Positions 1-32,329 of a stretch of DNA of 32,329 nucleotides are shown in pieces (within the stretch, counting starts at the first letter, position 1; each line of letters begins with the position of its first letter). The stretch comes from an uncultured Victivallaceae bacterium (lineage in GTDB: Bacteria; Verrucomicrobiota; Lentisphaeria; Victivallales; Victivallaceae): contig CALXXL010000022.1 of NCBI GenBank assembly GCA_944392655.1, positions 1 through 32,329 on the forward strand. The letters run 5' to 3'. The position numbers and the translations under genes are program-made. The notes under the pieces are model-generated. The model had not been told where the DNA came from. It saw only the letters and a program-made list of their open reading frames with translations, and made no database searches.

Positions 1-430
1 GCTGGAGCTTGTAGAGTTTTTTGACAATGCTATATTTTCTTTCATTTTTTTATCCTTTAGTTTACGGCTGGAGCTTGTAGAGTTTTTTGACAATGCTATA
101 TTAGGATTGTTTACGGGGGTCTCTTTTTTGAGCTGGAGCTTGTAGAGTTTTTTGACAATGCTATATTTTATAAGGAGCTTGTTTATGAGTGCTAGTGGCT
201 GGAGCTTGTAGAGTTTTTTGACAATGCTATATTATTCTTAAGAGACATATATATTAGGTACATGCTGGAGCTTGTAGAGTTTTTTGACAATGCTATATTC
301 AAAGGGGCGTTGAAACGCCTGCATGATTTGCTGGAGCTTGTAGAGTTTTTTGACAATGCTATATTCTTGCCCAATAGCCTTATTTTCTTCTTTCGCTGGA
401 GCTTGTAGAGTTTTTTGACAATGCTATATT
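1..430 (+). CRISPR. Type II-C CRISPR array, 7 repeats and 6 spacers, open at the left edge
   Basis: Seven identical 36-nt repeats start at 1, 67, 132, 198, 264, 330 and 395. Each begins GCTGGAGCTTGTAGAG and ends GACAATGCTATATT. The six spacers (37-66, 103-131, 168-197, 234-263, 300-329, 366-394) are 29-30 nt, the usual length for type II. The first repeat starts at base 1, so the array probably continues outside the window. Orientation is set by two signs: the repeat 5' half pairs with the tracrRNA anti-repeat at 4833-4850, and the repeat 3' end carries an extended -10 box. Both give plus-strand crRNA transcription, convergent with the cas genes. No repeat is degenerate, so neither array end can be called as the old end. 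Spacer targets cannot be identified without a database search. Confidence 0.98.
403..430 (+). promoter_or_regulatory. Promoter inside each CRISPR repeat (example: last repeat)
   Basis: Repeat positions 31-36 read TATATT and are preceded by TGC, giving an extended -10 (TG-N-TATATT). TTGTAG at repeat positions 9-14 lies 16 nt upstream as a weak -35. The same element is present in all seven repeats. Transcription would start about 7 nt into the following spacer and leave roughly 23 nt of guide. Repeat-borne promoters of this form are known in Neisseria type II-C arrays, whose repeats end in a similar TG-C-TACAAT. Its activity here is inferred. Confidence 0.7.
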
Positions 431-827: not shown

Positions 828-1711
828 CAGCAAAAATCCAGCAGATTTTTATTTTGCGCAAAAGAGTTGGCCAGCTGACCGGCATGAATTGTCAGAAGAT
901 TCCCCAAATCCCGCCGGTTTTCATGCCAGACTATCTCCGCATTCAACAGTTCTGCAATAATCTCTCCACGCATATTGCGCGATAATTCATCAAGTAAAGC
1001 GTTATCCGGATTTATCCGCGCTACCGCACGGTCAACTATATAACGGTAAGGCTCCATAAGATCGTCCGCCAGACAATAAGCGTTATAACGGTTGTGATGG
1101 TGTATCCCAATAGTCGGGTGCAACCCGGCACCGCATAACGCACGGGCGGTCATCGCCCGCAATATCGCATAACCGTAATTCAGTAATATGTTATTATCCG
1201 GCATATCGCGATCCCGCAGAAATGGCGAGTTAAACAATTGTTTCCAGTAAAGCACTGCCGCCCTCCCCTCCAGATTCTCCGGATCTCCGGATTTCACCTT
1301 ATCGGCCAAATGAAAAAATTCATCCCCCACGCCGTGCAATTCCATGAGCAAATTACCCTGAGAGCGGATTTTTGCCGCTACCACCGATTGCCATAAGCGT
1401 TTATATAACGGCAACGGCGCTTCCGCCTGTGCCCGGAAACGCTCATTCTGCAAATAATGAGCAGATAATGGCAACTGCATCGCCACCGGCAGACATTTAT
1501 TGTTGGAGATAATCACCATCACTCCCGCTTCAGCCAGCTCCGCCAGCAATGCGCCGGTAACCGATACGGCCGACGTCCCGAGTATCAGACACTCGATATC
1601 ATTTACCGGAATCCGGTGTTCCCCACCGTCAGTCAGCATCAGCACCAGCAGATGGTTGTCCATACTCAGCCGGGCGCCGCGCTCCACCACCTCAATAACT
1701 CTTTTAGTCAT
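827..1711 (-). CDS. cas1: CRISPR-associated integrase Cas1, type II
   Basis: This 294-aa protein is the catalytic subunit of spacer acquisition. The N-terminal beta domain includes RGARLSMDNHLLVL, and a helical catalytic domain follows. The expected metal ligands are visible: E148 in ENLEGRAA, H204/H205 in GIHHHNRYNAY and E220 in DDLMEPYR. These positions are almost the same as those known for Streptococcus pyogenes Cas1. The length is typical for type II. The ATG overlaps the end of cas9 by 8 nt (ATGACTAA), so the two are probably translationally coupled. The neighbours are cas9 upstream and cas2 downstream, with no csn2 or cas4. That composition defines subtype II-C. Confidence 0.97.
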   Translation of the reverse strand: MTKRVIEVVERGARLSMDNHLLVLMLTDGGEHRIPVNDIECLILGTSAVSVTGALLAELAEAGVMVIISNNKCLPVAMQLPLSAHYLQNERFRAQAEAPLPLYKRLWQSVVAAKIRSQGNLLMELHGVGDEFFHLADKVKSGDPENLEGRAAVLYWKQLFNSPFLRDRDMPDNNILLNYGYAILRAMTARALCGAGLHPTIGIHHHNRYNAYCLADDLMEPYRYIVDRAVARINPDNALLDELSRNMRGEIIAELLNAEIVWHENRRDLGNLLTIHAGQLANSFAQNKNLLDFC

Positions 1712-4700
1712 TGGCGCGCCTTAATTCACCCAATGCCGTAGTAGTGAATTTTTCCATTTTTCCTTTAAATGCGGCTGATAAAGTAGGAGTAAACCATTTT
1801 TTAGCCGATTTCAATGCCTTTACATCTCTTGCCTCATAAACAGGCACACATTGAAATTGTGGAAGGGCAACCCCGCGGATAACGCATAACTGCTCTTCTC
1901 CGTCTTTTATCCACCGCACAATATCGCCTTTGCGCAGGGTGAATTTTAATGGATTGCCGTTCTTTTCCTTTGGATAAATGGCTTCGCCTTTAAGCATCCG
2001 CAAACGGGCATCCATAAGTGAAACGATTTCGCCAGTCCAGCCAGTCTCGTTGCCATCCTTATCCAAAACTGAGTAGATGGCTAAAACGTGATTCGCCCCA
2101 TTGGCAACTTCGCGCTGACCATCACCGGAGCCGATTGTCCGGGTACTTTGCGTCTGCAATACCCGTACCCGTTTTATTATATTGACAATATTACCGTTAC
2201 GGTCACGCAAAACCGGCAGGTTAGTCCCGCCTTTGAACGCTTTCTTGGGATCGGCAATCCCGAGATCGTCCAATTTCTCTTCCACCGCCTTGCGGATCGC
2301 ATCATCAACAATGTCTTTAACTTTATCAGCCTCCAGGTCCTCCAACGCCTTTCGGGCATGGCGGACATCGCCACCGTAAGATTTGCTGTAGATCGTCTCC
2401 TTATGCAATGCTCCGCGCAATTTGTTCACGGTATGATGCGAGATTCCGGCGGAGTCCAGCTTGGCTTTCGCCTGAGTATAAAGGTCTGTAACCACTAACG
2501 GCCGTTTTTCTTCTATCGCTCTACGCCTGTCCTCCCCCTTCAACCCCGCAATGAGCTTTACAATAGCAGGCGATGTGACCGCTATCGTTAATGCGTCTAT
2601 GGCATGGTGCCGGTGATCTCCACGCACTTTCTCACCCTCGCCCAGCAGATAGTTGCCGCCCCACGCCCGACGCACCACCGCGGTGCAGCCACCCGCACTG
2701 CATTGGATGCGTTGAACCCCGTTGCGGTCATTCCTGCCACCGTACAGCAGGGCAAGATACTCGGTTGCCAGTTTACTGGCGTAACGGGTATCGTTCAAAT
2801 TACGATTGATAAAATCCTGTACCTCCGCCGTTTCAAGCTCAAATTTTTCCAGCTTGATTTTGGCAAACGACCCTTTAAAATGACGCACCCGTTCGATTAT
2901 TTCAGCATATTTTGCAGAGTCAAATGCTTCAAAAGGCAACTTGTCACTTTTAGCCATGTTGGCATCACGGTAGCTCAGGGTCTTATTGGCGTAGGAGTCA
3001 TCCATTGAACGGGAGTACGGAACAATATGCTCTATGTGGATTTCACCGCCATGCAACAGCTGATTTAAAGAAAAACTTTTACCAGTATAAGGACAAGTGT
3101 AGTCGCACTCTTCCGCCAGCATAACTTTTAAAATATCACGCGGCGAAGGATTCTCTATCCCCGCCTCCCGGGCAATCTTTTCCGCAATTTTTTTACGCTC
3201 TTTCTCCCGCTCACTATTTTTACGGCTTATATTCTCACGATCCTTACTGCTGTTCTTTAAATCACGCGCCAGCTCCACCCGGATCAAATCAGGTTTGCCA
3301 TATTTGCGGATTACCGCATTGACCACCCGGCGCAATTCGCTCAACGTACGCTGTACTATCGGATTGCGGATATCCAGATCAACTTCTTCCAACCGCGGCA
3401 GAACCGGCTCAACCACATCCGATGGCTGATACTGCTCCGGATATTTCAGTTTTATAATCGTATTCAACGCTATTCCAGCTTCCATATCCGGCAACAGATT
3501 TTCTATCGCCTTACGCGAATAATTGCAATAATCATCCGGCAGAACAATGTGGCTGAGTTCCTCAGCCGTCTCTTCATTGAAATGCCACTTCTCCATTAAG
3601 ATTTTCCGCATTACAGCGTTGTTTTCTACCGAATTAAGCGTGTTCAGAAATATATTACGCTCGGCTTCACTCAATTCAACCGCCTTATCGCCAAATGCAC
3701 GGAACAGAATTGCATTCAATTCGTTGCCGCATATATCTTTATCATCATCTCCAAGCGTGAACTTTTCTCCTTTGTCCAAGCCAACGAGCTTACCAAGCTT
3801 GGATAGCGCTATGCGACCTTTGCTGTTTAAATGGCCACTTAAACCATCCAGCACCACAAGAGCATTTTCCCGCTCGTCCTCTGTAAGCTCTCTTATCACA
3901 CCTGACTTATTGCTTACCTTCAGATTATTGACCCCCTGAACCAGCCGGAAACGCTGTGCCGCCATAGTAGAATAAGAACAGCGCTTTTTATCCGGCTCCA
4001 ACCGGCAGTTACCGATAAGATGTTTACAGCTCCTCAGCTTACGCTGGAAAAATATGGCGTGATGTAACTCCGCTTCTACCTCCACGCTGATAATATGCCG
4101 CTGAGCCACACAGATTTTATGAAATTCATCCTCAAACATTCCACGCTCAGTATAACGGGTGCGGATTCTGCTCTCTTCCGGATCAAGCATGGAAAAGTAT
4201 TCTCCTAATGTACGAGCCCCGGAATCTGCCATCGCCTGCTTAAGATCGGCAATCCCGGAAAGCACTTTTCCCGATTCTGAATCTTTAGCCTCCTGCTTGC
4301 GGTTGCTCTTATACCCACGACGCTGCGCCAGTTGATACAAAGCACGCCCCAGCTGATATCTATCCAACGGACGATCCAACGCCAGAGAACGCAGAAGATA
4401 TGGCACCACATGAGCCGCTCTTTTGCGCTCATTTTCCGGCAGTGTCAACAGAAAATCACGGTCAACCTTAACAAAAAACTCCGGAGTAAGTTTTTCCGGC
4501 AACATCCCTTCCCGCATTAAAATTGCAGTAACCTCCTCTTTATGTCTGCGCCGACGCTGATACATACGCCTCAAAGAACGTTTCTGCCGACGCACCGAAC
4601 AACGAGACTCCCCTTTCCCGGCACGTATCTCGTCTTCAGTGGCATCAACCCCAGGCTCAAAGATCCGGCTACCCCAATCAATAAGTTCTATCCTGTTAGT

Positions 4701-4772
4701 ATTATCATCATCTATCACTGCCCAACCAACAGAGCTGATACCCAAATCCAGTCCCAATACTCTCTGTTTCAT
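1704..4772 (-). CDS. cas9: Cas9 RNA-guided DNA endonuclease, compact type II-C
   Basis: This 1022-aa effector cleaves DNA matched by crRNA paired with tracrRNA. RuvC-I is LGLDLGISSVGWAVI with catalytic D9. The arginine-rich bridge helix follows (RRQKRSLRRMYQRRRRH, about residues 61-77). RuvC-II holds E500 in RVELARDLK. The HNH domain includes CPYTGKSF and IEHIVPYSRS with catalytic H582, then NKTLSY. RuvC-III holds HHAID with D726. All nuclease residues are present, so the enzyme should be active. The C-terminal 250 or so residues would form the wedge and PAM-interacting domain; the PAM cannot be read from sequence. At 1022 aa it is in the small II-C class (Neisseria Cas9 is 1082 aa). The ATG has a GAGG ribosome site 6 nt upstream. 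It is the first gene of the cas operon. Confidence 0.98.
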   Translation of the reverse strand: MKQRVLGLDLGISSVGWAVIDDDNTNRIELIDWGSRIFEPGVDATEDEIRAGKGESRCSVRRQKRSLRRMYQRRRRHKEEVTAILMREGMLPEKLTPEFFVKVDRDFLLTLPENERKRAAHVVPYLLRSLALDRPLDRYQLGRALYQLAQRRGYKSNRKQEAKDSESGKVLSGIADLKQAMADSGARTLGEYFSMLDPEESRIRTRYTERGMFEDEFHKICVAQRHIISVEVEAELHHAIFFQRKLRSCKHLIGNCRLEPDKKRCSYSTMAAQRFRLVQGVNNLKVSNKSGVIRELTEDERENALVVLDGLSGHLNSKGRIALSKLGKLVGLDKGEKFTLGDDDKDICGNELNAILFRAFGDKAVELSEAERNIFLNTLNSVENNAVMRKILMEKWHFNEETAEELSHIVLPDDYCNYSRKAIENLLPDMEAGIALNTIIKLKYPEQYQPSDVVEPVLPRLEEVDLDIRNPIVQRTLSELRRVVNAVIRKYGKPDLIRVELARDLKNSSKDRENISRKNSEREKERKKIAEKIAREAGIENPSPRDILKVMLAEECDYTCPYTGKSFSLNQLLHGGEIHIEHIVPYSRSMDDSYANKTLSYRDANMAKSDKLPFEAFDSAKYAEIIERVRHFKGSFAKIKLEKFELETAEVQDFINRNLNDTRYASKLATEYLALLYGGRNDRNGVQRIQCSAGGCTAVVRRAWGGNYLLGEGEKVRGDHRHHAIDALTIAVTSPAIVKLIAGLKGEDRRRAIEEKRPLVVTDLYTQAKAKLDSAGISHHTVNKLRGALHKETIYSKSYGGDVRHARKALEDLEADKVKDIVDDAIRKAVEEKLDDLGIADPKKAFKGGTNLPVLRDRNGNIVNIIKRVRVLQTQSTRTIGSGDGQREVANGANHVLAIYSVLDKDGNETGWTGEIVSLMDARLRMLKGEAIYPKEKNGNPLKFTLRKGDIVRWIKDGEEQLCVIRGVALPQFQCVPVYEARDVKALKSAKKWFTPTLSAAFKGKMEKFTTTALGELRRAND

Positions 4773-4798: not shown

Positions 4799-4826
4799 TT
4801 GCAAAATGTTAAATACATATTATTGT
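4799..4826 (+). promoter_or_regulatory. Predicted tracrRNA promoter
   Basis: TTGCAA (4799-4804), a 16-nt spacer and TATTGT (4821-4826) point into the tracrRNA. The predicted start is near 4833, the first base of the strong anti-repeat. It overlaps the predicted minus-strand cas9 promoter, so the two could compete for RNA polymerase. The AT-rich setting makes chance matches likely. Confidence 0.4.
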
Positions 4827-4842
4827 TTTAATAACTCTACAA
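4814..4842 (-). promoter_or_regulatory. Predicted cas9 operon promoter inside the tracrRNA anti-repeat
   Basis: On the minus strand TTGTAG (4842-4837), a 17-nt spacer and TATGTA (4819-4814) face cas9, with a start expected near 4807 and a leader of about 35 nt carrying the GAGG site. The geometry closely follows the promoter in each CRISPR repeat (TTGTAG, 16 nt, TATATT). Both boxes are weak matches to consensus and there is no extended TG, so this is a moderate prediction. Confidence 0.4.
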
Positions 4843-4914
4843 GTTCTGGTAAAGAACTTTCGCAGGCTACTTCCCGCGGGAAGTCCTCATAGCGGCTTCA
4901 ATAGCCGCTTTTTT
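4815..4914 (+). ncRNA. tracrRNA of the type II-C system
   Basis: Bases 4833-4850 (AACTCTACAAGTTCTGGT) pair along their whole length with the first 18 nt of the CRISPR repeat, with only G-U wobbles as imperfections. A weaker match, with one insertion, continues back to about 4815, covering the full 36-nt repeat in inverted orientation. Downstream lies a hairpin, ACTTCC-CGCG-GGAAGT (4869-4884), which can extend through AGG/CCT (4864-4866, 4885-4887) past a 2-nt bulge. An intrinsic terminator follows, AGCGGCT/AGCCGCT (4891-4909), then a T-run. The RNA is divergent from cas9 and leads towards the DXS-like gene. Mature ends are not known; a start near 4833 would give about 80 nt. Confidence 0.9.
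4891..4914 (+). terminator. Intrinsic terminator of the tracrRNA
   Basis: A 7-bp stem, AGCGGCT (4891-4897) with AGCCGCT (4903-4909), closes a 5-nt loop and is followed by a run of T. It also serves as the final hairpin of the tracrRNA. Confidence 0.85.
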
Positions 4915-5079
4915 ATTTTATATACAAATATCTTACTGATCAGAATTATAGCACAATATATTTTATTTTACAAATGAACCCATTCCATATTATATTATTA
5001 TTATTTATTTTTATCTATTAATATAAAACTGCATTTTATATAGCTTATACACACTATGAATTTCCAGATTTTCTCCATA
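4915..5079. other. AT-rich spacer between tracrRNA and the DXS-like gene
   Basis: About 165 bases of very AT-rich sequence. I see no reading frame with a ribosome site, no RNA gene and no clear repeat. It probably just insulates the tracrRNA terminator from the downstream promoter. Confidence 0.5.
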
Positions 5080-8254: not shown

Positions 8255-9073
8255 CTATATATTCCTGTGCTCAAAGAAAACAATAAATTTCCTGAAGTGA
8301 TTCCGCCAGTAGCCGGACGGAATACCCATTACAACCGATGCCAATGCCAGCATTGCAAAAAATCCACCCAAGAAAAACAGCAAACGCAAAACTGCCGTAC
8401 GCCAGAAACTACGATCATACCATACCTGCAAAACAAGATAACACGGCATTATCAGCAGAAGTTCAAAAGATTCCTGACGGTTCAGCACCATCAATGCCGC
8501 TGTAAGACCGGAAGCTCCCCACCCCCAGGATCGCTCACGCACTTCAGCATAAATTATTCCCCAGAAAAAATAGGCCAACAGCATAACATAGATACCGTCG
8601 CGCTCAATCAGCGCCGCCATCCGGATAGCGTATGGGTGGGTGGCCGCAAGCGTCATCAAAAGCAGACCGGCTCCATTGCTGTTACGCCACAGCAGACGCC
8701 CGATAAAAAAGAATGGAATTACAAACAATACCCCCGCAACAACCGCAACAATTTTACCTGAGGTAATAACATCAAGCCCGGTACGGGCGATACTTTGTGT
8801 CAGAAAAAGCAGTAACGGCGGCACAGTCATCGATTCGTCGCTGTATACTGCGGAAAATCCACCGGACAACCAGCGCTCCGCCGCCTCTACATAGACGATT
8901 TCATCCCGCTCAAGCAACTGAACCTCAATCACCCGTATCCAGCGCAGAGCACCACTCAAAATGATTAATATGGCAAACAGTATCGCGGTTTTCTTAAACG
9001 AAAAATTAAAACCAACGCCGATACGTTCAAGTTTCGGTTTCAGCCAATCGAAGATTTTTGTCAGCCTATACAT
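8255..9073 (-). CDS. N-terminal part of a split GT39/PMT-type glycosyltransferase
   Basis: This 272-aa membrane protein has the hallmark of dolichyl/undecaprenyl-phosphate-sugar transferases: an acidic pair in the first periplasmic loop (D57-E58 in LLERDEIVYVEAAERW) after the first membrane helix (about 28-48). More helices follow near 105-125, 132-150, 160-178, 190-215 and 225-250. Such enzymes move a sugar from a polyprenyl phosphate to an acceptor outside the inner membrane. The frame ends at a TAG (8257-8255) in the middle of the expected membrane domain, and continues in the same frame as the next 437-aa gene. The ATG overlaps the end of the polymerase/ligase gene as ATGTATAG, so it belongs to the polysaccharide operon. 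The split may be a mutation, an assembly error or real. Confidence 0.75.
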   Translation of the reverse strand: MYRLTKIFDWLKPKLERIGVGFNFSFKKTAILFAILIILSGALRWIRVIEVQLLERDEIVYVEAAERWLSGGFSAVYSDESMTVPPLLLFLTQSIARTGLDVITSGKIVAVVAGVLFVIPFFFIGRLLWRNSNGAGLLLMTLAATHPYAIRMAALIERDGIYVMLLAYFFWGIIYAEVRERSWGWGASGLTAALMVLNRQESFELLLIMPCYLVLQVWYDRSFWRTAVLRLLFFLGGFFAMLALASVVMGIPSGYWRNHFRKFIVFFEHRNI

Positions 9074-10301
9074 CGCTTATCGGGGATTTTTGAATCGGAA
9101 GCGTCTCGGTATGTGACTCTACTGCCGGCATCGACTCCCGGGCAAGACGGTGCAGGCGGAACGCCGCACCCGCGGCAAACCACCATAACTGCCAGCTTAT
9201 ACCCAGAAAAATCGGCGCAGGTTCAAATAACGAAGCAACAAAACCGGAAATAAGTACCGCAGGAATCCAGTAATAATCCGGTCTGGAAAATATCAGTCTC
9301 CAGCTCTTCAACACCATCATTACAATTATAATCATGCAGATTATGAAAAATACCACCCATACCCCGCACTCAATAAACAGCTTCAGCCAAGTATTATGGA
9401 AGTCATATATCAACCCCATGGTCTCATGCGCTACCAACCCGAACCCGAGAAACGCCATGTTCGGAAATATATTGTCTATAAAAAACATATACTGATCTAT
9501 ACGGCCGGAGGTAATGTCTCGCGCGTACAACCGGAAAAATTCCCCGAACCGCAGGATAATACGCCGGGTTAATGTGATGATCAGCAACATGAACAGCGCC
9601 GGATAAAACTTCTGCTTTGAAACTATGATCACCGTAACCGCTACCAGAACCACCGTGGATACAATCCCCCCGCGACCGCCGCTAAGCAGCTGCAATACCA
9701 GCAAAGGCAGCAGCAGTAACCCCAGACGCACATAATCTTTGACCTGACGGAGCGTTCCGGCAAGAATAAACGTTAAACCGGCTATCTGCGCAATACTTAC
9801 CGACCAGCCGGTTCGACCGAACGCAAATCCGGTCTCATTCAGATCAGGAATACCATCCAGCGTGTCCGGGTAGATGTCAAGATAAATATCCATCGGTATC
9901 TGCCACTGCGGGAAACCCCATATCGCATGAGTGAAAATCGGCAGACAGTAGATAATCAACAGCCAGTATACCCACTTCAGAAAATCATAACTCTCTTCAT
10001 AGTTAATACCGGCAACGAAAAATATATAGGCGATCACCAGCGACAGACTGGTCTGCTGCATAACCATCGCCGTGGTGTGGTTGCCGTGATACATCGCTAT
10101 CCCGGCATAACTCAGGGTCATAAACAAAAACACCAGGTGATATACAAACATCTTCGGCGCAAGAAAATTCTTGATATTGAACAATATCACTATGAAAAGA
10201 AACAGATTCTTGACCGCCATCACCTTCCCGAACGGACCATACCACAATATCGGAGACAGGGCAAAGGTTAAAAGCAGCGATATATTATAAAAATTCAACA
10301 T
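9066..10301 (-). CDS. O-antigen polymerase/ligase family membrane protein (Wzy/WaaL type)
   Basis: A protein of 411 aa with about ten to twelve membrane helices. It has the features of the Wzy_C family: a periplasmic loop with SGGRGG followed by helices, and DFHNTWLKLFIECG near residue 310, the usual H-N-x-W-L stretch. Members either polymerise undecaprenyl-linked repeat units or ligate the finished chain to lipid A core. The two cannot be separated here. Its place between a flippase, a glycosyltransferase and a GT39-type gene favours a polysaccharide assembly role. A TTG three codons upstream is also open, but it abuts the GAGAGG site, so the ATG at 10301 (9 nt spacing) is chosen. It stops with TAG. 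Confidence 0.8.
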   Translation of the reverse strand: MLNFYNISLLLTFALSPILWYGPFGKVMAVKNLFLFIVILFNIKNFLAPKMFVYHLVFLFMTLSYAGIAMYHGNHTTAMVMQQTSLSLVIAYIFFVAGINYEESYDFLKWVYWLLIIYCLPIFTHAIWGFPQWQIPMDIYLDIYPDTLDGIPDLNETGFAFGRTGWSVSIAQIAGLTFILAGTLRQVKDYVRLGLLLLPLLVLQLLSGGRGGIVSTVVLVAVTVIIVSKQKFYPALFMLLIITLTRRIILRFGEFFRLYARDITSGRIDQYMFFIDNIFPNMAFLGFGLVAHETMGLIYDFHNTWLKLFIECGVWVVFFIICMIIIVMMVLKSWRLIFSRPDYYWIPAVLISGFVASLFEPAPIFLGISWQLWWFAAGAAFRLHRLARESMPAVESHTETLPIQKSPISDV

Positions 10302-10328
10302 CCAATCCAACCTCTCAAAATCAAATCT

Positions 10329-11465
10329 CTACTCCGCACCCAGCTCCGCACAGATCTTCTTTACCGTTTCAAAATTATTACAGGAATTAAAGAATTTTTC
10401 CGCATTGTTCCGCAATTTATCATAATCCGCATCAATTTTCAACAGAATATCTTTGATTTCTCCGGACGAAATGGAGGAAAAGTTCAAACACACTCCGCAA
10501 CCGCTACGCTCTATCGTATATTTCAGCCCGAGGACATCACTCCCGATCATCGGCAGCCCGAAACCGGAGTATTCCCAAATCTTGTTCGGCGCACAGAACT
10601 CCGTATTCAACGAATGATGCTCATACGTCACCGCACCGATATAAGCATGAGAGGTAACCGATAAATGATCCGGCGCAGGAAGATACGGTATATGTATGAA
10701 ATTGCGGTATCTACTTTTATAAGGCTCCAATTCACGCGCGTACTCATTATGACACTGCACCGCAAAATACCACGGTGCCCCAAGACTCTCCACCGCTTCC
10801 AGCAATGGTTCAAGATTGCGCTCCCTGCCCATTATACCCTGGTAAAGTATCAATTTTGCATTATCCGGCAAAGAATCCAGAATTGTTTGTATCTCTTCAC
10901 TCTTAACCGCCATCTTCGACTGGCGCGGATGATAACTCGGCTTGTTCGGCAGAATCTCCGGCGTCTCCCGTAAATTGAACCACGCACGGAATATGTGCGC
11001 ACGCCCCTCTTCCGGCACCACCACCTTCATCGCACCAGGCATCAGATGACTCAAAGCCTTACGGTAACGCTCGTGCTGCGGCAGATCATACAGCTCCTGC
11101 ACCTGCAATACATAACGGTAATTACTTAATTCCGATTCCCCCAGCGCCATCGCAGCATCAGCACTGCCCAGCCACAGATAATCAGGATTACTCCGTTTTA
11201 TATAACTCAAAGCCATCCGGCGGAAATGCCGCCATATCCGGAGCTTCTCCAGTTTGCCGGGGACAGGCAGCTTGTGCGGCACTCCGGTTAGAAATACTTC
11301 AACCCCACTATGTTCAAAACGGTCACGCGTTGCCTGATTCATCGTCACCGCAACAATCCCGAGCTCAATTTCCGGTATTGATGACAGATGTTCGCAGACC
11401 GATAAAATGGGCGGACGGCGATTCAGGTCATCCTTTATCACTAAAATTATTTTTATTTTTCTCAT
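10329..11465 (-). CDS. GT-B fold glycosyltransferase (GT1/GT4-like)
   Basis: This 378-aa soluble protein has the two-domain outline of GT-B glycosyltransferases. The N-terminal Rossmann half starts MRKIKIILVIKDDLNRRPP. The C-terminal half contains LILYQGIMGRERNLEPLLEAVESL and the nucleotide-sugar site region APNKIWEYSGFGLPMIGSD (about 295-313), which closely resembles GT4 enzymes. It would add a sugar to the lipid-linked repeat unit on the cytoplasmic face. Donor and acceptor cannot be predicted. It lies between the flippase (62 nt gap) and the polymerase/ligase gene (27 nt gap). The ATG at 11465 has only a weak purine-rich ribosome site. Confidence 0.8.
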   Translation of the reverse strand: MRKIKIILVIKDDLNRRPPILSVCEHLSSIPEIELGIVAVTMNQATRDRFEHSGVEVFLTGVPHKLPVPGKLEKLRIWRHFRRMALSYIKRSNPDYLWLGSADAAMALGESELSNYRYVLQVQELYDLPQHERYRKALSHLMPGAMKVVVPEEGRAHIFRAWFNLRETPEILPNKPSYHPRQSKMAVKSEEIQTILDSLPDNAKLILYQGIMGRERNLEPLLEAVESLGAPWYFAVQCHNEYARELEPYKSRYRNFIHIPYLPAPDHLSVTSHAYIGAVTYEHHSLNTEFCAPNKIWEYSGFGLPMIGSDVLGLKYTIERSGCGVCLNFSSISSGEIKDILLKIDADYDKLRNNAEKFFNSCNNFETVKKICAELGAE

Positions 11466-11527
11466 ACTGTCAACTTTTCCACTATTAAGTTGGAAATATA
11501 TACCTGAAGCTGCCGTTCGTCAATACC

Positions 11528-12895
11528 CTAAACCGCTTTTTTACATTTATCTTTACGGATTAGCCACGCCAGATAAAATGACTGCAAAACCGTATGTATC
11601 AGATAACTCAGCAATATCGCCGCTGCCGCCCCCCTGGCTCCAAGCCCGCGCTGCAGAAAAAGATAACACAACCCCAGAGCAACCACACCCCATAATAAGT
11701 TGAAGCCAAAGCCAATCCACATCTTCGACTGACTCGCTATCGCCAGACCAACCACAGATGCAATCGAGGTGAATATTGTCGATAACGCCAGCAGAATCAA
11801 TGGCATAGGTTCAAGAAAATCTCTGCCGTACAGCAGCATTATATTTTTACTGAGACCTATGACTATTGCACTCAGAAATACTGTTACTCCGGCATTCATC
11901 ATAACATTTATTAAAAGTACCCTGGTATAGGTACCGATCTCTCCCTTGCTCCGGATGTTGGATAATATCGGCAGCGCTATACGCGACATCGCTGACGGAA
12001 TAAAAAGTATCATCGTTTTCCACTGATCCGCCGCACCGTATACACCAACTTCACCAAAACCGTCAAATTTGGCCAGCATCATTTTTATCCCTAAAAATAC
12101 CGGCATCACCATCAATGTCGAAAGCATGGCCGGCAGACTGAACTGGTGGATTATCTTGAAATCATCCCGGCTGACACGCGTCCAACGCGGCACTATATTC
12201 TCACGCCGCAAATTAGTACGAATCGCCAACGCATTGGCCAGCGTCCATACCAGAAAACCAACCCCGTAACCAAGTATCGCACCGGTAATCCCCCAAAGAC
12301 GGGCCCCGATTATAATCATTACTCCTTCAACTATTCCGGTAATTATCGAGTTTACCGCCACCATCCTGAAATTTTCAAAGCCAGACAGTACACCCGTTTG
12401 AATTCCGCTCAAGGTACTGAAGAAGAGCCAGAGCCCACCCCAACGGATGCAATCGGTAAGATCCGGCGCCGATACCTTCTCCGCAATAAATGGAGCCACC
12501 AATATAACCACAAAAGCCAGCAATGCACCCATTATACCGCCGGACCAGCCGGAAATTACATAGATACCCGCCGCACGCTCTTTTTGCGTCTCACGGTATT
12601 CTGAGATATATTTGGCCGCAGTGTTGCCCATCCCCATCGCGCCAAGCACAACAAAGATATTGATGGTGTTCTGCACCAGATTGAGTTTACCGAAATTCTC
12701 TTTGCCCAGTATCTTGGCGCATACCATCAATGCTACAAGAATACACAGATACTGCACCGCTGAACCGGCAATCGACCAGAACGCCCCGCCGGATAAACGT
12801 TTGCCTATTCCACTCAGCAGCATACTCTCCAACCGCTGACGCACATGCTCAGGCAGCAACGGTAATAATTTTTTCAGCAGCAGTTCCAAATTCAC
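11528..12895 (-). CDS. wzx: Polysaccharide flippase (Wzx/MATE-like)
   Basis: A polytopic membrane protein of up to 455 aa with about twelve to fourteen helices. It starts from GAFWSIAGSAVQYLCILVALMVC, followed by the family-typical AKILGKENFGKLNLVQNTINIF and GMGNTAAKYISEYR. It should flip undecaprenyl-linked repeat units to the periplasm for the Wzy-type protein. The longest frame starts at a GTG (12895) that lies directly on GAGGGG, too close for a ribosome site. A TTG at 12889 or the ATG at 12823 (GGAG just upstream) may be the real start, so the first 24 residues are uncertain. A possible structured RNA with a T-run precedes it. Confidence 0.85.
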   Translation of the reverse strand: MNLELLLKKLLPLLPEHVRQRLESMLLSGIGKRLSGGAFWSIAGSAVQYLCILVALMVCAKILGKENFGKLNLVQNTINIFVVLGAMGMGNTAAKYISEYRETQKERAAGIYVISGWSGGIMGALLAFVVILVAPFIAEKVSAPDLTDCIRWGGLWLFFSTLSGIQTGVLSGFENFRMVAVNSIITGIVEGVMIIIGARLWGITGAILGYGVGFLVWTLANALAIRTNLRRENIVPRWTRVSRDDFKIIHQFSLPAMLSTLMVMPVFLGIKMMLAKFDGFGEVGVYGAADQWKTMILFIPSAMSRIALPILSNIRSKGEIGTYTRVLLINVMMNAGVTVFLSAIVIGLSKNIMLLYGRDFLEPMPLILLALSTIFTSIASVVGLAIASQSKMWIGFGFNLLWGVVALGLCYLFLQRGLGARGAAAAILLSYLIHTVLQSFYLAWLIRKDKCKKAV

Positions 12896-12900
12896 CCCTC

Positions 12901-12970
12901 AAAAAAAATTCAAGATGCGGCCGATACCGGAAGATATATCCCGCTCCCGGAGTAATCTAAAGACCGCATC
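12901..12970 (-). promoter_or_regulatory. Possible attenuator or structured leader before the flippase
   Basis: On the minus strand GGATGCGG (12971-12964) pairs with CCGCATC (12920-12914, plus a closing G-U), enclosing 43 nt that can form two small hairpins (CTC/GAG and GATA/TATC). Five bases later comes a run of eight T's (12908-12901), then GAGGGG before the flippase start. The outer stem plus T-run resembles an intrinsic terminator or attenuator inside the operon. No known riboswitch class is recognised. Confidence 0.35.
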
Positions 12971-12987
12971 CAGATAAAATCAGCTCT

Positions 12988-14193
12988 CTATTTCGCCAGC
13001 ACACCACAGAAGTCCAGCAGCACTTTGTCATCCGTCACCGGCAGTGTCTTGAACTCTTTATGCGCCACCAGATAAACTACTATGTCCGCCTTATCAAAGG
13101 CGGTTTGATAATCGGTAAGATTAAATACCTTGTGAGTAGCTACGTTCGGCTCCACTATCAGAATTTCACAACTGCCGGAGTACTGCAATACGCGGCTTAC
13201 CACATATTTCGCCGGAGATTCACGCAGATCGTCTATGTCCGGCTTGAACGCCAGTCCCATCATCGCTACCACCGGACCGCGCCCATTCTTTACCTGAAAA
13301 TCGGTTATCGCACGCACCACCTTTTCCGCACACCAGAACGATTTGTAATTGTTCACCTCACGCGCCTGAGCAATCAAACGCGACTCCATCGGAAAATCAG
13401 ACGTGATAAAGTACGGGTCTACCGCAATACAGTGCCCCCCTACCCCGCAACCGGGTTTCAGTATATTCACCCGCGGATGCTTGTTGGCCAGACGGATCAG
13501 CTCCCAGACGTTGATCCCAGCCTTGTCACATATAAATGACAACTCGTTGGCAAAGGCAATCTGCACGTCACGCGAGGCATTCTCCGTAAGTTTGCACATC
13601 TCCGCCGTCTTCGCATCTGTCTTATGCAGTTCACCCTGCACAAAGTGCGCATAAAATTCCGCCGCCTTAACCGTCGACTCCGGCGTCATCCCACCGATAA
13701 CCCGGTCGTTATGCACAAGCTCGTAGACCGTGTTCCCCGGCAGAACCCGCTCCGGACAGTAGGCCATATAAAGTTTGCCCTCAAGATCGGGGCGCTCACT
13801 GTAAATAAGATGCGCCATAAGCTCCGTCGTTCCCACCGGAGAAGTAGACTCTATCACATAAAGATCACCCGCTTTCAAATATGGCAGAAGACTGCGGGTG
13901 GCGGCCTCTACAAACGAAATGTCAGGCTCATGATTGTTCTTGAACGGCGTGGGAACCACGATAAAATAGGCATCACTCACCTCCGGGGTCAGCGACGCAC
14001 GCAGCTTGCCGCTATTTACCGCCTCGCGGCACAACTCCTCCAGCCCCGGCTCTACTATGTGGATCTTACCCTGATTTACCGATTCCACCACCTTTTCATT
14101 TATATCCACCCCGACAATATCCACCCCGTGACGGGCGGCAATTATCGCAGTCGGCAATCCAATATAGCCAAGACCGACAAAACAAGCTTTCAT
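12988..14193 (-). CDS. wecC: UDP-N-acetyl-D-mannosamine dehydrogenase (WecC-like)
   Basis: This 401-aa enzyme of the UDP-glucose/GDP-mannose dehydrogenase family oxidises UDP-ManNAc, or a related UDP-sugar, to the uronic acid with 2 NAD+. The N-terminal NAD domain begins MKACFVGLGYIGLPTA. VESTSPVGTT-type residues appear as YVIESTSPVGTT. The catalytic cysteine lies in CGVGGHCIAVDPYF (second cysteine, about C255). NKHPRVNILKPG just before it is typical of WecC rather than Ugd. The partner epimerase WecB is not in the window. A TTG two codons upstream is open, but the ATG at 14193 has AGGGAAA at good spacing. It is the first gene of the polysaccharide operon, which suggests a ManNAcA-containing polymer. 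Confidence 0.9.
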   Translation of the reverse strand: MKACFVGLGYIGLPTAIIAARHGVDIVGVDINEKVVESVNQGKIHIVEPGLEELCREAVNSGKLRASLTPEVSDAYFIVVPTPFKNNHEPDISFVEAATRSLLPYLKAGDLYVIESTSPVGTTELMAHLIYSERPDLEGKLYMAYCPERVLPGNTVYELVHNDRVIGGMTPESTVKAAEFYAHFVQGELHKTDAKTAEMCKLTENASRDVQIAFANELSFICDKAGINVWELIRLANKHPRVNILKPGCGVGGHCIAVDPYFITSDFPMESRLIAQAREVNNYKSFWCAEKVVRAITDFQVKNGRGPVVAMMGLAFKPDIDDLRESPAKYVVSRVLQYSGSCEILIVEPNVATHKVFNLTDYQTAFDKADIVVYLVAHKEFKTLPVTDDKVLLDFCGVLAK

Positions 14194-14241
14194 TATCAAC
14201 TTTCCCTTATATATAAAAGCGGTTGCATTTTTTATCCTATT

Positions 14242-27571: not shown

Positions 27572-27632
27572 ACAACACTAAACTTACTGCCAATAAATGC
27601 TAAACAAGATAAATTTTTTTAAGGAGAATATT

Positions 27633-30600
27633 ATGAATTCAATTAATATCAGTGCAATTTTTGTCAAGGCCTATAATAATATCGTGCGAGAAATTCACCG
27701 TGTAGGAGACGGGGATAATCTGACTGAACTGCCTATAAACTCACAGGTCGCCCAGGGCAGCTTGAATAAATTACGCAGCGCAGTAGATGGCTTGATGGCA
27801 AAGTCCAAAAATTTCGATATTGAATATAAATATGATGATGACGACCCGGATCATGAGAAAACGCCGGTTGATGTAGTACCAGTTATAACCTCCAAGGAAG
27901 TTAATGGTGGAAAAGGATGGCTTATTGTTCCGGCAATGAACGGCAATGAAGCTGTATATGAATATCCTGATCCTGATAACCGAAACATACACAACAGTAT
28001 CCCCGATACTCTGCCGGTGCTTCCGGAACATATCCAGGATATTATTTCCAATCTTAACAGCATTGATAACTTCAGCGCCAACGAAGGTTACAGCTTTGAT
28101 ACCGTTTATGAAAATGGTGTCAGCAAAGCAAAAGCCAATCCTGAAAACAGCTATCAAACAACTTATTTTGATCCCGAAGAAAAATCATATATGTTAATGC
28201 ATGGGAACGACCTTTGCTATTCTCATGCTGATGGACATTGGCATAATTATGGAGCTTCAGGCGGATACAGCAATAATATAGTATATGCAACATACAAATG
28301 TACCGCCACTTCAGATAATGATCCGAACGGCAACTCCGGCAATCGGGCAATAATGATTTTTAAAAAAGATGTTTACTTCCATAATGAATGGCATGATGAT
28401 CTCCAAAACGATGACGGGGGAACTATAACATTTGAAGCAAAATGGGAAAGATGTGCCTACCCGACAGCTCAAATATCAGATCCGATAGAATCTTTGGAAA
28501 TAACAACAGGGTTTGTTGGAGTATACGAGAAATACGAAAAGCATATCGCCACCTCCCCGTATGTAATAGTACCAGTGAGTATGAATGTGGAAAATGTTCC
28601 TCTGGCTGACAATGACCATTCGGAAAACGGCTTGATTGAAACCGGATGTTCTGCAAGCGCAATCGGCGAAGGCAGAACTATCAGCGATACTGAAATAAGA
28701 TATTCACTCGGCTCGGGAAATCTTGTTGACGGCGTTGCTAAATTTATATTGTATCTGACCAATTTATTTGTTGAAGATGCAATGGACGGCTATTTTACCA
28801 ATATTGAAACAGTAGGTGTATACCATTGGCCGACAACTTATACTTTTAAAACGTCAGAAAACACCAATGTCTCTATCAAACTCGGCGTATTGCGCCGGCC
28901 AAACGGTGCCTATGCTCCGATAATATGGCAAAATCCAGGTGATGGCGGCTGGGGAGAACCGTTAACCGGTGGAGGGTATCGGGTATTGGATAATGAAGAG
29001 GAAGAAACACTTACCGTTTATTTCAATGACGGCGCTATTCACAAATTTACCAAACTTGGCGGGTTCTCAGGAGCATATATGAGATCCAAGGATGGAATTG
29101 TCCAGATACCGCAATCCGGGATCAGCATAAGTTCAGCCAGCAACCCTACGCGCGAAATAACTCATGCGGTCGAGGGAAGTGCTTCTATTTATTGTTCTCA
29201 GAACGGCAACCTTATTAATGTTTCTCAAATTACCTTTGCTCCGGAAGGCATCTCTGTTTTCGATATTCCAGATGATGACCGGGAACGATTCTCTCACAAA
29301 ATCACAATTTCAGGTAACCGGAATTATATGAACTATCGCGCACCACATGAACCACTGCCAATAGAAGAACTTCCAGCTATCGGAGGCGGCTCCATATCAG
29401 GAGGAGCAATTCTAAATCCGGAAGATGCAGGTTCATATAATTCCACCGAAACGGTCTCCTCATCAGAAGGTATTTATGCTCAAACGACTAAAAATTATGT
29501 CCACGAAGATGACGGCACATGGACCAGCACGTCGACCACTACTAAAGGAAATGATTCGTTTAGCTTCACCGAACAATTGATTAATTTTCACGGCAGAAAT
29601 CTGCCGCTGACTAAGAACATCGGTGGCAGAATCACACAATACGGCTATTATGATAACGGTCTGTTAAAGTATCAGATTAATCCGGACGGGTCGTGGGTAT
29701 ACAATATATATGATTCGGACAACCGTATTGTAAAAGCGATTTCTCCTTTCGGAAATATTGCACTGGCGTTCAATGAAGTAACCGGCGAAGTAATTACCCC
29801 GACTGAATCATCCTGCCGGGTTACTGAATATGATTATACCGCCCAAATGACCGGCGACTCACCGTTACCGGGAGATGTTCGCCCGCGCCGCGTTGTTGAC
29901 AAAGTTCAGAATGTCGAAATTTCGCGCCGGTATTATGTTTATCTGGCCAACGAATACCGGGAAATCATCTGCCGCACCGCCAATGCGACAATCAGTAACG
30001 CAAACAATCTTGTCACTATTCATACATCATACGCTTCCGGTAATTATGAAGGACGTCCGCACAAAGTGATCTATCCGGACGGCACGATTTCCATCACCAC
30101 TTATGCCGCCACGGCGGATGGTGAAACTGTCACTACCACTACCGGTAAACCCAATGCGGATAAAAGCGCGGTTGTTGATGGAACAAAGATTGTCAAAACT
30201 ATGAACAGCGCCGGATTTACCGTGCAAAAACAGGAAATTGACATCGCCTCTGGACTGATTATCGACATTATTCAAACCGAATATTACCTCGGTAAACCAT
30301 ACCGGACCACCTATCTTGATGGGTCGGAGGAAATTACCGAGTATTCATGCTGCGGCATTCAACGGCATATTGCCCGCGATGGCAGCGAAATTATTTACCA
30401 ATATACCCCCGATCACCGGTTGGCTCAAACAACAAAGAATCAGCTCGTTACCACCAATGAATACAATGCCGCCGGACAGATAATCCGTACCACCGTATTC
30501 CCCGAAGGCGTCGCAAACGCATCTTATCTGCTTACTCTGCGCGAATACAACAATTCGGGCGAGTTGCTGAAGGAAAAAGTCGCCATCAACCCGGTATCCG

Positions 30601-32329
30601 GCAGCGACCCGACCGATGATGCAAGTTATGCCGTAACCACTTATTCCCAGAGCAAAGTCGGCGATTACTGGCGACGCACCCGGACCAATCCGGACGGCAG
30701 TGTAATTTATGAGGATTACAATTGTGACGGCACTTTGGCCGCCGTATCCGGCTCCGGAGTCGCCGCGCCGTGCACCTACTCCACAACCGTGGTCAATGGT
30801 CAGGTGTGCCGTACCCGGAGCTATGCCAGAGCCAACGGCGAAAATGAAACCGTAAGCACATACACCGACTTTGCCGGAAACAGCTACAAAACCTCGTACA
30901 GTGCGGGCAACAACGACATCTATGAATATGATTCCGCCGGACGGGTCAAATATCATACCGATGTCAATAATGTGGTGACCTTTTATGAATATAACGACAA
31001 GGGCGAACTCTACCGCACCTCCATTCTGCTCGGCGGTCGCTACAAGGAGGACGGTTCGGACAACACTCCGCAAAGCAACGACCCGGCAACGGAGACGGTT
31101 TCCGACTGCATTGCGGCGGAAAACAACAGCATCTACGGGGTTAAACGCCAGCGCGTATTCGAGTACGGCGACAATGCTTCCTCCGGTACACTTGTGCGCA
31201 CCACACTGACCTCCAATGTGGACAACTCCACCTCTACCAACGAATTCGGACGCGTCACCACTACGGTGGTCACCTACATCAACGATGAATCTGAACAGGG
31301 CAGAAGCGAAGTTATTACCTATCCGGACAACTCCACCGTCACCAACAGCTACTCCGGCGGATTGCTCGAATCCAGCACTCACAGCGTACTGGGAACGACA
31401 ACCTACACCTACAACCAGTTCAATCAGCTGGAATCGGAGGAACGTAATGACGGCGGCACGACGGTAAAAACCGTCTACACCTATGACGGACGCGGCAACA
31501 ACCTAACCCAGACTACCACCTTCAACGGCGGCAACTCCCGGGTGTACAGCCGCACCTATGACAAAATGAACCGGGTACTTACTGAAACTCAGCCCGGCAA
31601 CCGCACCGTAACCAACGTCTACTATGAAAACGGGCTCTTGAAACACACCTCCGGCTACGGCGTATATCCGCAGGAGTATACCTACGAAAATGGACGCAAA
31701 GTCTCGATGACCACCTGGCAGGATGAGGATACCCCAGCGGTAACCAGCTGGAGTTACGACCTCTCAGGACGCCTGACCGCAAAAACCTATGCCGATAACT
31801 CCGCCACCACCTATACTTACGGAGCAAACGGCAAACTCTCCCGGCGCACCTGGGCAAACGGCGTGAAGACCGACTACACCTATGACGGCGCAGGCCGGTT
31901 GACCGGAGTAAATTACAGTAACGACACTCCGGACGTATCCTACGTTTATGACCGGCGCGGCCGCACCGTGCAGATTACCGACGGCTCCGGCACCCGCAAT
32001 CTGGCGTATAATAACGACAACTCTCTGAAATATGAGGAACTGCCGTATTTCAGCAGTTACCGGCTGGAAAAAGAGTATGACGCGCTCGGACGGTTGACCA
32101 AAACCGGGCTGAAACAGCCTAATGGCGACAACTGGGCCTATGCGGTAAGTTATACTTACGATGCGATGAGCCGACTGGCGACCTTGAGTCAGGGCGGCAA
32201 AACACTCACCTATTCGCGACTCGCCAACTCCGACCGCCTCGACAAGGCAGAGTTCTCACCGGCCTCCGCCGCCCCGGCAGTCGAATACTCCTACGACACT
32301 AAACTGCGCCTCATCTCCAAGGGATGCGG
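27633..32329 (+). CDS. Giant YD-repeat (Rhs-like) protein, 3' end outside the window
   Basis: An uninterrupted frame of 1565 codons starts at an ATG with an ideal AAGGAG site and runs off the window. About the first 600 residues have no recognised domain and are acidic and Asn/Asp-rich; there is no signal peptide or membrane helix. From about residue 660 come YD-type repeats, such as YYDNGLLKYQINPDGS, YEYDSAGRVKYHTD, YTYDGRGNNLTQT, YTYDGAGRLTGVNYS and YVYDRRGRTVQITDG. They become dense after residue 1090. Such repeats build a hollow beta cocoon that often encloses a C-terminal toxin in Rhs, Tc and wall-associated proteins. The cocoon end and any toxin tip or immunity gene lie past the edge. 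The 5' part is visibly more AT-rich than the repeat part. Confidence 0.93.
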   Translation, partial: MNSINISAIFVKAYNNIVREIHRVGDGDNLTELPINSQVAQGSLNKLRSAVDGLMAKSKNFDIEYKYDDDDPDHEKTPVDVVPVITSKEVNGGKGWLIVPAMNGNEAVYEYPDPDNRNIHNSIPDTLPVLPEHIQDIISNLNSIDNFSANEGYSFDTVYENGVSKAKANPENSYQTTYFDPEEKSYMLMHGNDLCYSHADGHWHNYGASGGYSNNIVYATYKCTATSDNDPNGNSGNRAIMIFKKDVYFHNEWHDDLQNDDGGTITFEAKWERCAYPTAQISDPIESLEITTGFVGVYEKYEKHIATSPYVIVPVSMNVENVPLADNDHSENGLIETGCSASAIGEGRTISDTEIRYSLGSGNLVDGVAKFILYLTNLFVEDAMDGYFTNIETVGVYHWPTTYTFKTSENTNVSIKLGVLRRPNGAYAPIIWQNPGDGGWGEPLTGGGYRVLDNEEEETLTVYFNDGAIHKFTKLGGFSGAYMRSKDGIVQIPQSGISISSASNPTREITHAVEGSASIYCSQNGNLINVSQITFAPEGISVFDIPDDDRERFSHKITISGNRNYMNYRAPHEPLPIEELPAIGGGSISGGAILNPEDAGSYNSTETVSSSEGIYAQTTKNYVHEDDGTWTSTSTTTKGNDSFSFTEQLINFHGRNLPLTKNIGGRITQYGYYDNGLLKYQINPDGSWVYNIYDSDNRIVKAISPFGNIALAFNEVTGEVITPTESSCRVTEYDYTAQMTGDSPLPGDVRPRRVVDKVQNVEISRRYYVYLANEYREIICRTANATISNANNLVTIHTSYASGNYEGRPHKVIYPDGTISITTYAATADGETVTTTTGKPNADKSAVVDGTKIVKTMNSAGFTVQKQEIDIASGLIIDIIQTEYYLGKPYRTTYLDGSEEITEYSCCGIQRHIARDGSEIIYQYTPDHRLAQTTKNQLVTTNEYNAAGQIIRTTVFPEGVANASYLLTLREYNNSGELLKEKVAINPVSGSDPTDDASYAVTTYSQSKVGDYWRRTRTNPDGSVIYEDYNCDGTLAAVSGSGVAAPCTYSTTVVNGQVCRTRSYARANGENETVSTYTDFAGNSYKTSYSAGNNDIYEYDSAGRVKYHTDVNNVVTFYEYNDKGELYRTSILLGGRYKEDGSDNTPQSNDPATETVSDCIAAENNSIYGVKRQRVFEYGDNASSGTLVRTTLTSNVDNSTSTNEFGRVTTTVVTYINDESEQGRSEVITYPDNSTVTNSYSGGLLESSTHSVLGTTTYTYNQFNQLESEERNDGGTTVKTVYTYDGRGNNLTQTTTFNGGNSRVYSRTYDKMNRVLTETQPGNRTVTNVYYENGLLKHTSGYGVYPQEYTYENGRKVSMTTWQDEDTPAVTSWSYDLSGRLTAKTYADNSATTYTYGANGKLSRRTWANGVKTDYTYDGAGRLTGVNYSNDTPDVSYVYDRRGRTVQITDGSGTRNLAYNNDNSLKYEELPYFSSYRLEKEYDALGRLTKTGLKQPNGDNWAYAVSYTYDAMSRLATLSQGGKTLTYSRLANSDRLDKAEFSPASAAPAVEYSYDTKLRLISKGC

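Follow-up and report, generated by a model that had tools for sequence, protein, structure and literature searches.

The DNA analysed here (the window, 32,329 nt, an entire contig) begins with a type II-C CRISPR array in which, very probably, each repeat ends in a sigma-70 extended -10 element from which RNA polymerase would start transcription inside every spacer. The array appears to be a well-supported further example of a repeat-promoter arrangement known from the same CRISPR subtype, and the finding is confirmatory. It occupies positions 1–430 of the + strand and consists of seven identical 36-nt repeats (GCTGGAGCTTGTAGAGTTTTTTGACAATGCTATATT; 1–36, 67–102, 132–167, 198–233, 264–299, 330–365 and 395–430), which we counted as one observation, and six spacers of 29–30 nt. 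Base 1 of the window is the start of the contig and falls within the array; the array is therefore cut, and seven is a minimum for its repeat number. All seven repeats end in TGCTATATT, a TG-N-TATATT motif (TGC-TATATT at 28–36, 94–102, 159–167, 225–233, 291–299, 357–365 and 422–430, + strand), whose hexamer matches TATAAT at five of six positions. A -35-like hexamer, TTGTAG, precedes TATATT by 16 nt at repeat positions 9–14 (9–14 of the window in repeat 1, + strand) and matches TTGACA at only three of six. Both boxes and their spacing had been pointed out in an earlier reading made from the letters of the window (the sequence-only reading), and the repeat sequences bear this out. A generic scan of the array for the sigma-70 -35/-10 consensus returned one site against 1.4 expected in shuffles; this site was another than the one in the sequence-only reading, and the repeats were not flagged.

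The array adjoins, on the opposite strand, an operon cas9-cas1-cas2: cas2 (480–833, - strand; TIGR01573, PF09827), type II cas1 (827–1711, -; TIGR03639, PF01867) and cas9 (1704–4772, -; 1022 aa, TIGR01865, with HNH_4 and RuvC_III). Neither csn2 nor cas4 was found by reading, and there is no other ORF of at least 90 aa on the cas strand between the array and cas9. Upstream of cas9, on the + strand, lies a putative tracrRNA (about 4833–4915) comprising an anti-repeat (4835–4850), a tail and an intrinsic terminator (stem 4891–4909 followed by a T-run); the gene beyond it encodes DXP synthase. The putative promoter of the tracrRNA (TTGCAA-16-TATTGT, 4799–4826, +) is weak in the window and clearer in relatives, whose putative tracrRNA promoters contain the hexamers seen in the repeats (e.g., TTGACT-16-TATATT), a point in favour of the -10 reading. 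The tracrRNA is predicted to pair with the repeat, with a duplex energy of -29.0 kcal/mol for the + strand repeat vs -9.6 kcal/mol for the other strand, and shuffled repeats (n = 500) gave a mean of -14.1 and a minimum of -24.4 kcal/mol against the same anti-repeat. The locus is thus a type II-C CRISPR-Cas9 system, as the sequence-only reading had it. Since the tracrRNA pairs with the 5′ half of the + strand repeat, the + strand is the crRNA strand, again in agreement with that reading; the crRNA direction therefore points towards cas2, and each repeat has TGCTATATT at its 3′ end.

In a single repeat, the -10 could be a matter of chance. For comparison, we gathered the arrays at Cas9 loci recovered by searching (118 loci examined, several fetched twice); a first scan of genome contigs with one Cas9 had yielded no relatives. 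Of the 67 distinct arrays that we kept, 56 have a reading direction opposite to that of cas and 11 share its direction (read with cas); this classification rests partly on hand assignment. In L070 to L118, many anti-repeats upstream of cas9 match the repeat over its full length and so take in the complement of the -10. Because of such whole-repeat coverage, the automatic orientation was read with cas for 20 loci (L070, L071, L075, L085, L091–L093, L097, L098, L101–L103, L105, L106, L111, L115, L118, L150, L152 and L173) and undecided for L081, L088 and L108; we moved all of these by hand to the opposite class, judging by where the tracrRNA tail and terminator lie and which way they run. Among them are L101 and L103, where no tracrRNA was visible in the stretch viewed, and L102, where it was partly visible. 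Similarity of repeats decided the class of L050, for which a weak match had given the score read with cas, and of L043, L046, L072, L154, L155 and L170, with weak or missing tracrRNA calls. Three loci of undecided orientation, L156, L162 and L168, were assigned by hand to the arrays read with cas. L153, with two repeats, was first removed by a three-repeat filter and restored for the final count, and two eroded repeats upstream of L040, one with TATATT and one with CATATT, were left out.

The end of the repeat is strongly conserved among these relatives. Arrays read opposite to cas gave 49 distinct repeats, and 48 of these have TAnnnT at exactly positions 31–36; in 2,000 within-repeat shuffles, the motif stood there in 1.1 repeats on average and in 6 at most. 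A further search and a second look at loci skipped at first added two arrays of this class without the motif, L187 and L153, which brings the count to 48 of 51. Among arrays read with cas, one of ten distinct repeats has TAnnnT at this place. With L147 excluded from the column analysis, T31, A32 and T36 are the sole invariant columns of 36 among the 48 repeats, and the same three are invariant in a set of 24 repeats thinned to less than 80% identity. Of the 48, 45 have A34 and 34 have G29, and positions 33 and 35 vary. The invariant positions are those of greatest weight in a -10 element. The conserved pattern, TAnAnT, is that of a sigma-70 -10 and points to a promoter. Conservation of the repeat end in relatives, which the sequence-only reading had named as a check, holds for TAnAnT and fails for the preceding TG, present in only 16 of 49 repeats. 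In the clade of the window, the repeat end stays TATATT or TACATT as the middle of the repeat varies. Records with such arrays carry the labels of nine phyla (Lentisphaerota, Kiritimatiellota, Verrucomicrobiota, Planctomycetota, Acidobacteriota, Zixiibacteriota, Elusimicrobiota, Pseudomonadota and Actinomycetota), these being unchecked labels of metagenome-assembled genomes.

Some arrays speak against the -10 reading. Three of the 51 repeats are without TAnnnT at the usual place: L147 has TACACT shifted to positions 26–31, five bases upstream, L187 ends in AACAGT and the two repeats of L153 end in TGCAAT. Conversely, L156 is read with cas yet has TACAAT.

The -35 fared differently. TTG at positions 9–11 was seen in 32 of the 49 repeats from arrays read towards cas2 but also in four of the ten from arrays read with cas, which are nearly all without a -10; the mean match to TTGACA at 9–14 is 3.5 of 6 vs 4.0 of 6, respectively. 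Moreover, TTG at this place falls in the half of the repeat that pairs with the tracrRNA. A full -35/-10 promoter with a -35 specific to the arrays that have the -10 is accordingly not supported as a general feature, and the role of TTGTAG as a -35, proposed in the sequence-only reading, is unsupported. Some relatives have near-perfect pairs of boxes, such as TTGACA-17-TATATT in L115 and TTGACA-16-TACATT in L075. The proposal of a promoter in every repeat is therefore supported as to the -10, its conservation, the strand, the predicted guide length and the type II-C setting, but not as to the -35.

If the -10 is used, RNA polymerase would most likely initiate about 7 nt into each spacer. With the start at this distance from the hexamer, each crRNA would begin with a predicted guide of 23–24 nt, in keeping with the roughly 23 nt given in the sequence-only reading. 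A single cut per crRNA would follow on the 3′ side, presumably by RNase III where the tracrRNA pairs with the next repeat. The crRNA supply in this clade would then need no leader promoter and little processing, and every new spacer would be expressed wherever it is inserted.

The layout of the array suits promoters in the repeats. The flank between the last repeat and cas2 (431–479, + strand) is leader-like and contains a weak inverted repeat in the window. In nine arrays of the window clade (36 pairs), flanks on the cas2 side had a mean identity of 0.52 compared with 0.38 on the far side, where three of the nine (L038, L039 and L040) still contain an eroded or cut repeat. Eroded repeats sit at the cas-distal end of arrays. 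Together with the conserved flank, these probably fit an entry of spacers beside cas2, downstream in the reading direction, and the leader-like end would be the probable spacer-adding end. The same entry side has been described for new spacers in Flavobacterium columnare (PMC8092290). No spacer was common to any two of the arrays, which might have told the older end. With the leader-like flank on the downstream side, a promoter in the leader could not drive the array, and promoters borne by the repeats would suit this arrangement.

An improbable alternative is that one long precursor is transcribed from a cas-distal promoter off the contig and cut by RNase III with the tracrRNA, as in type II-A, the -10 remaining unused. 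The contig begins inside the array, so there is room for an upstream promoter, and the tracrRNA-pairing half is retained in seven of seven repeats. The lower identity of the cas-distal flank in relatives argues against such a promoter, and a long precursor leaves the -10 fingerprint unexplained.

A distinctly unlikely reading is that the needs of Cas1-Cas2 during spacer integration on the leader side keep the repeat end constant, its likeness to a -10 being coincidental. The repeat end does face the leader-like flank, and integration could conserve it. L147 (G149:C6:15000-34000), the only array without cas1 and cas2 nearby, has lost the end TATATT; this array directly adjoins cas9, and cas1 and cas2 were not found in the 19 kb of that stretch. 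However, L147 retains TACACT five bases upstream, and TAnAnT, in which positions 33 and 35 are free to vary, has the form of a -10 element. The outermost repeats at the far end also weigh against integration. In 37 arrays, the outermost cas-distal repeats showed 93 mismatches, 82 of them in positions 1–18, eight in 19–30 and three in 31–36, with none at 31, 32 or 36. The 5′ half of this repeat serves no spacer. The pattern is mirrored in arrays read with cas, where all 20 mismatches in eight units are at positions 21–36; erosion of the edge alone could therefore suffice for the gradient, and the finding is consistent with a promoter without being decisive. Internal repeats had 19 mismatches in 880 copies, too few for weighing selection.

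A palindrome, which often abuts the end of the repeat and to that extent favours integration, was seen beside the last repeat on the cas2 side of many arrays (e.g., L151, L169 and L172; weak in the window, 431–466). It starts 1–4 nt and ends 32–48 nt after the last repeat, and its stem has at least nine pairs in 28 of 56 arrays. The z-score of the fold was below -2 for 29 of 56 flanks on the cas2 side vs three of 41 far flanks. This palindrome is possibly a spacer-integration element. We do not call it a terminator: the T content after the stem is similar on both strands (3.9 vs 3.6 of 10), and the stem is also found in some arrays read with cas.

That the repeat end is conserved solely for pairing with the tracrRNA is barely credible: anti-repeats covering the whole repeat, including the -10, do occur in many Planctomycetota, Acidobacteriota and Zixiibacteriota loci, but in the window clade the tracrRNA pairs with repeat positions 1–18 and a few bases at 23–26, leaving the last 9 nt unpaired, so pairing does not account for the TATATT or TACATT kept there.

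Gain and loss of promoters in the repeats may be tied to the direction of the array. In the Cas1 tree and in the Cas9 tree alike (quick and FastTree methods, long branches flagged), the orientation with cas requires at least two changes, and L156 and L162, both read with cas, nest inside a clade read the other way. Ten of the 11 arrays read with cas are without the -10, L156 being the exception. The direction with cas is supported in L160, L161, L164, L167 and L168 by a tracrRNA-like gene that is placed between cas2 and the array and shares the direction of both. A simple search for leader promoters of arrays read with cas found none in several of them. As far as the trees and repeats indicate, the polarity of the array would have changed on two or more occasions, in most cases together with loss of the -10, an aspect that is possibly less known. 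We regard it as an evenly balanced proposition that, in cas9-cas1-cas2 loci, repeat promoters are needed in arrays read towards the spacer-adding end and are mostly lost after a switch, with L156 as an intermediate. The contrast between arrays of the two directions would serve as a natural experiment on the reason for repeat promoters in some Cas9 loci.

In Neisseria meningitidis, the last nine nucleotides of the repeat were reportedly shown by experiment to be an extended -10 (Zhang et al. in 2013, as cited in PMC7038990 and PMC8616872), in an array opposite to cas. The window shares with it the extended -10 in the terminal nine nucleotides, here from sequence alone, and the array read opposite to cas; with the Neisseria and Campylobacter kind in general, it has in common a -10 at the 3′ end of the repeat on the crRNA strand and an array running towards cas2. 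The Neisseria repeat differs in its end (TGCTACAAT in N. lactamica, PMC4607530, table 1) and has no TTG at 9–11. For the type II-C system of Campylobacter jejuni, starts have been mapped in every spacer, with GGTAAAAT at the repeat end (PMC3656092). The window resembles it in its cas9-cas1-cas2 locus, the extended -10-like repeat end and, by prediction, an own start per spacer; C. jejuni differs in that its starts, at spacer position five, were determined by dRNA-seq and primer extension, and in its repeat sequence (PMC3656092). A survey whose set includes 58 type II-C systems gives gnTAnaaT for the 3′ end of type II-C repeats, along with convergent orientation, a degenerate proximal repeat and, in a few species, a box shifted upstream (PMC4607530). 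The arrays studied here resemble these systems in all four respects, with a gnTAnaaT-type end, a convergent array, a degenerate outer repeat and an occasional upstream-shifted box. Given the C. jejuni starts (PMC3656092) and this survey (PMC4607530), the novelty implied by the sequence-only reading, which saw an extension to a different lineage, is largely gone. The main text of the survey names no Lentisphaerota, Verrucomicrobiota or Acidobacteriota, and its section on type II-C repeats does not describe arrays read with cas and lacking the box (PMC4607530).

The last nine nucleotides of the Clostridium cellulolyticum H10 repeat also resemble an extended -10, for which the report suggests a promoter role only (PMC7038990). 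Like the window, this array is opposite to cas, and its guides measure 23–26 nt; it differs in that RNA was observed, in E. coli carrying the locus (PMC7038990). A repeat-encoded promoter has been predicted for F. psychrophilum (PMC10309648). The report on Riemerella gives no promoter as found in its repeats (PMC5006608) and that on F. columnare did not find the usual motif (PMC8092290); as far as these accounts go, the repeat promoter is not universal. The opposite orientation is given as the rule for type II-C (PMC3936727, PMC6737040). In the literature on Lentisphaerae, CRISPR and Cas9, judged by titles, none concerned such arrays, and on array direction vs repeat promoters the nearest source was again the survey (PMC4607530).

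The bacterium is Victivallaceae-like. Its Cas9 has 13 near-full-length relatives at 52–69% identity (L052–L064), of which 11 are labelled Lentisphaeria, Lentisphaerae, Victivallaceae or Victivallis, one only bacterium and one Alloprevotella. Elsewhere on the contig, positions 9066–14199 (- strand) hold polysaccharide genes, among them a polysaccharide-synthesis membrane protein and a UDP-glucose/GDP-mannose dehydrogenase, with an O-antigen ligase match under its cut-off. At 27597–32327 (+ strand), an open frame with RHS repeats (PF05593) runs off the end of the contig.
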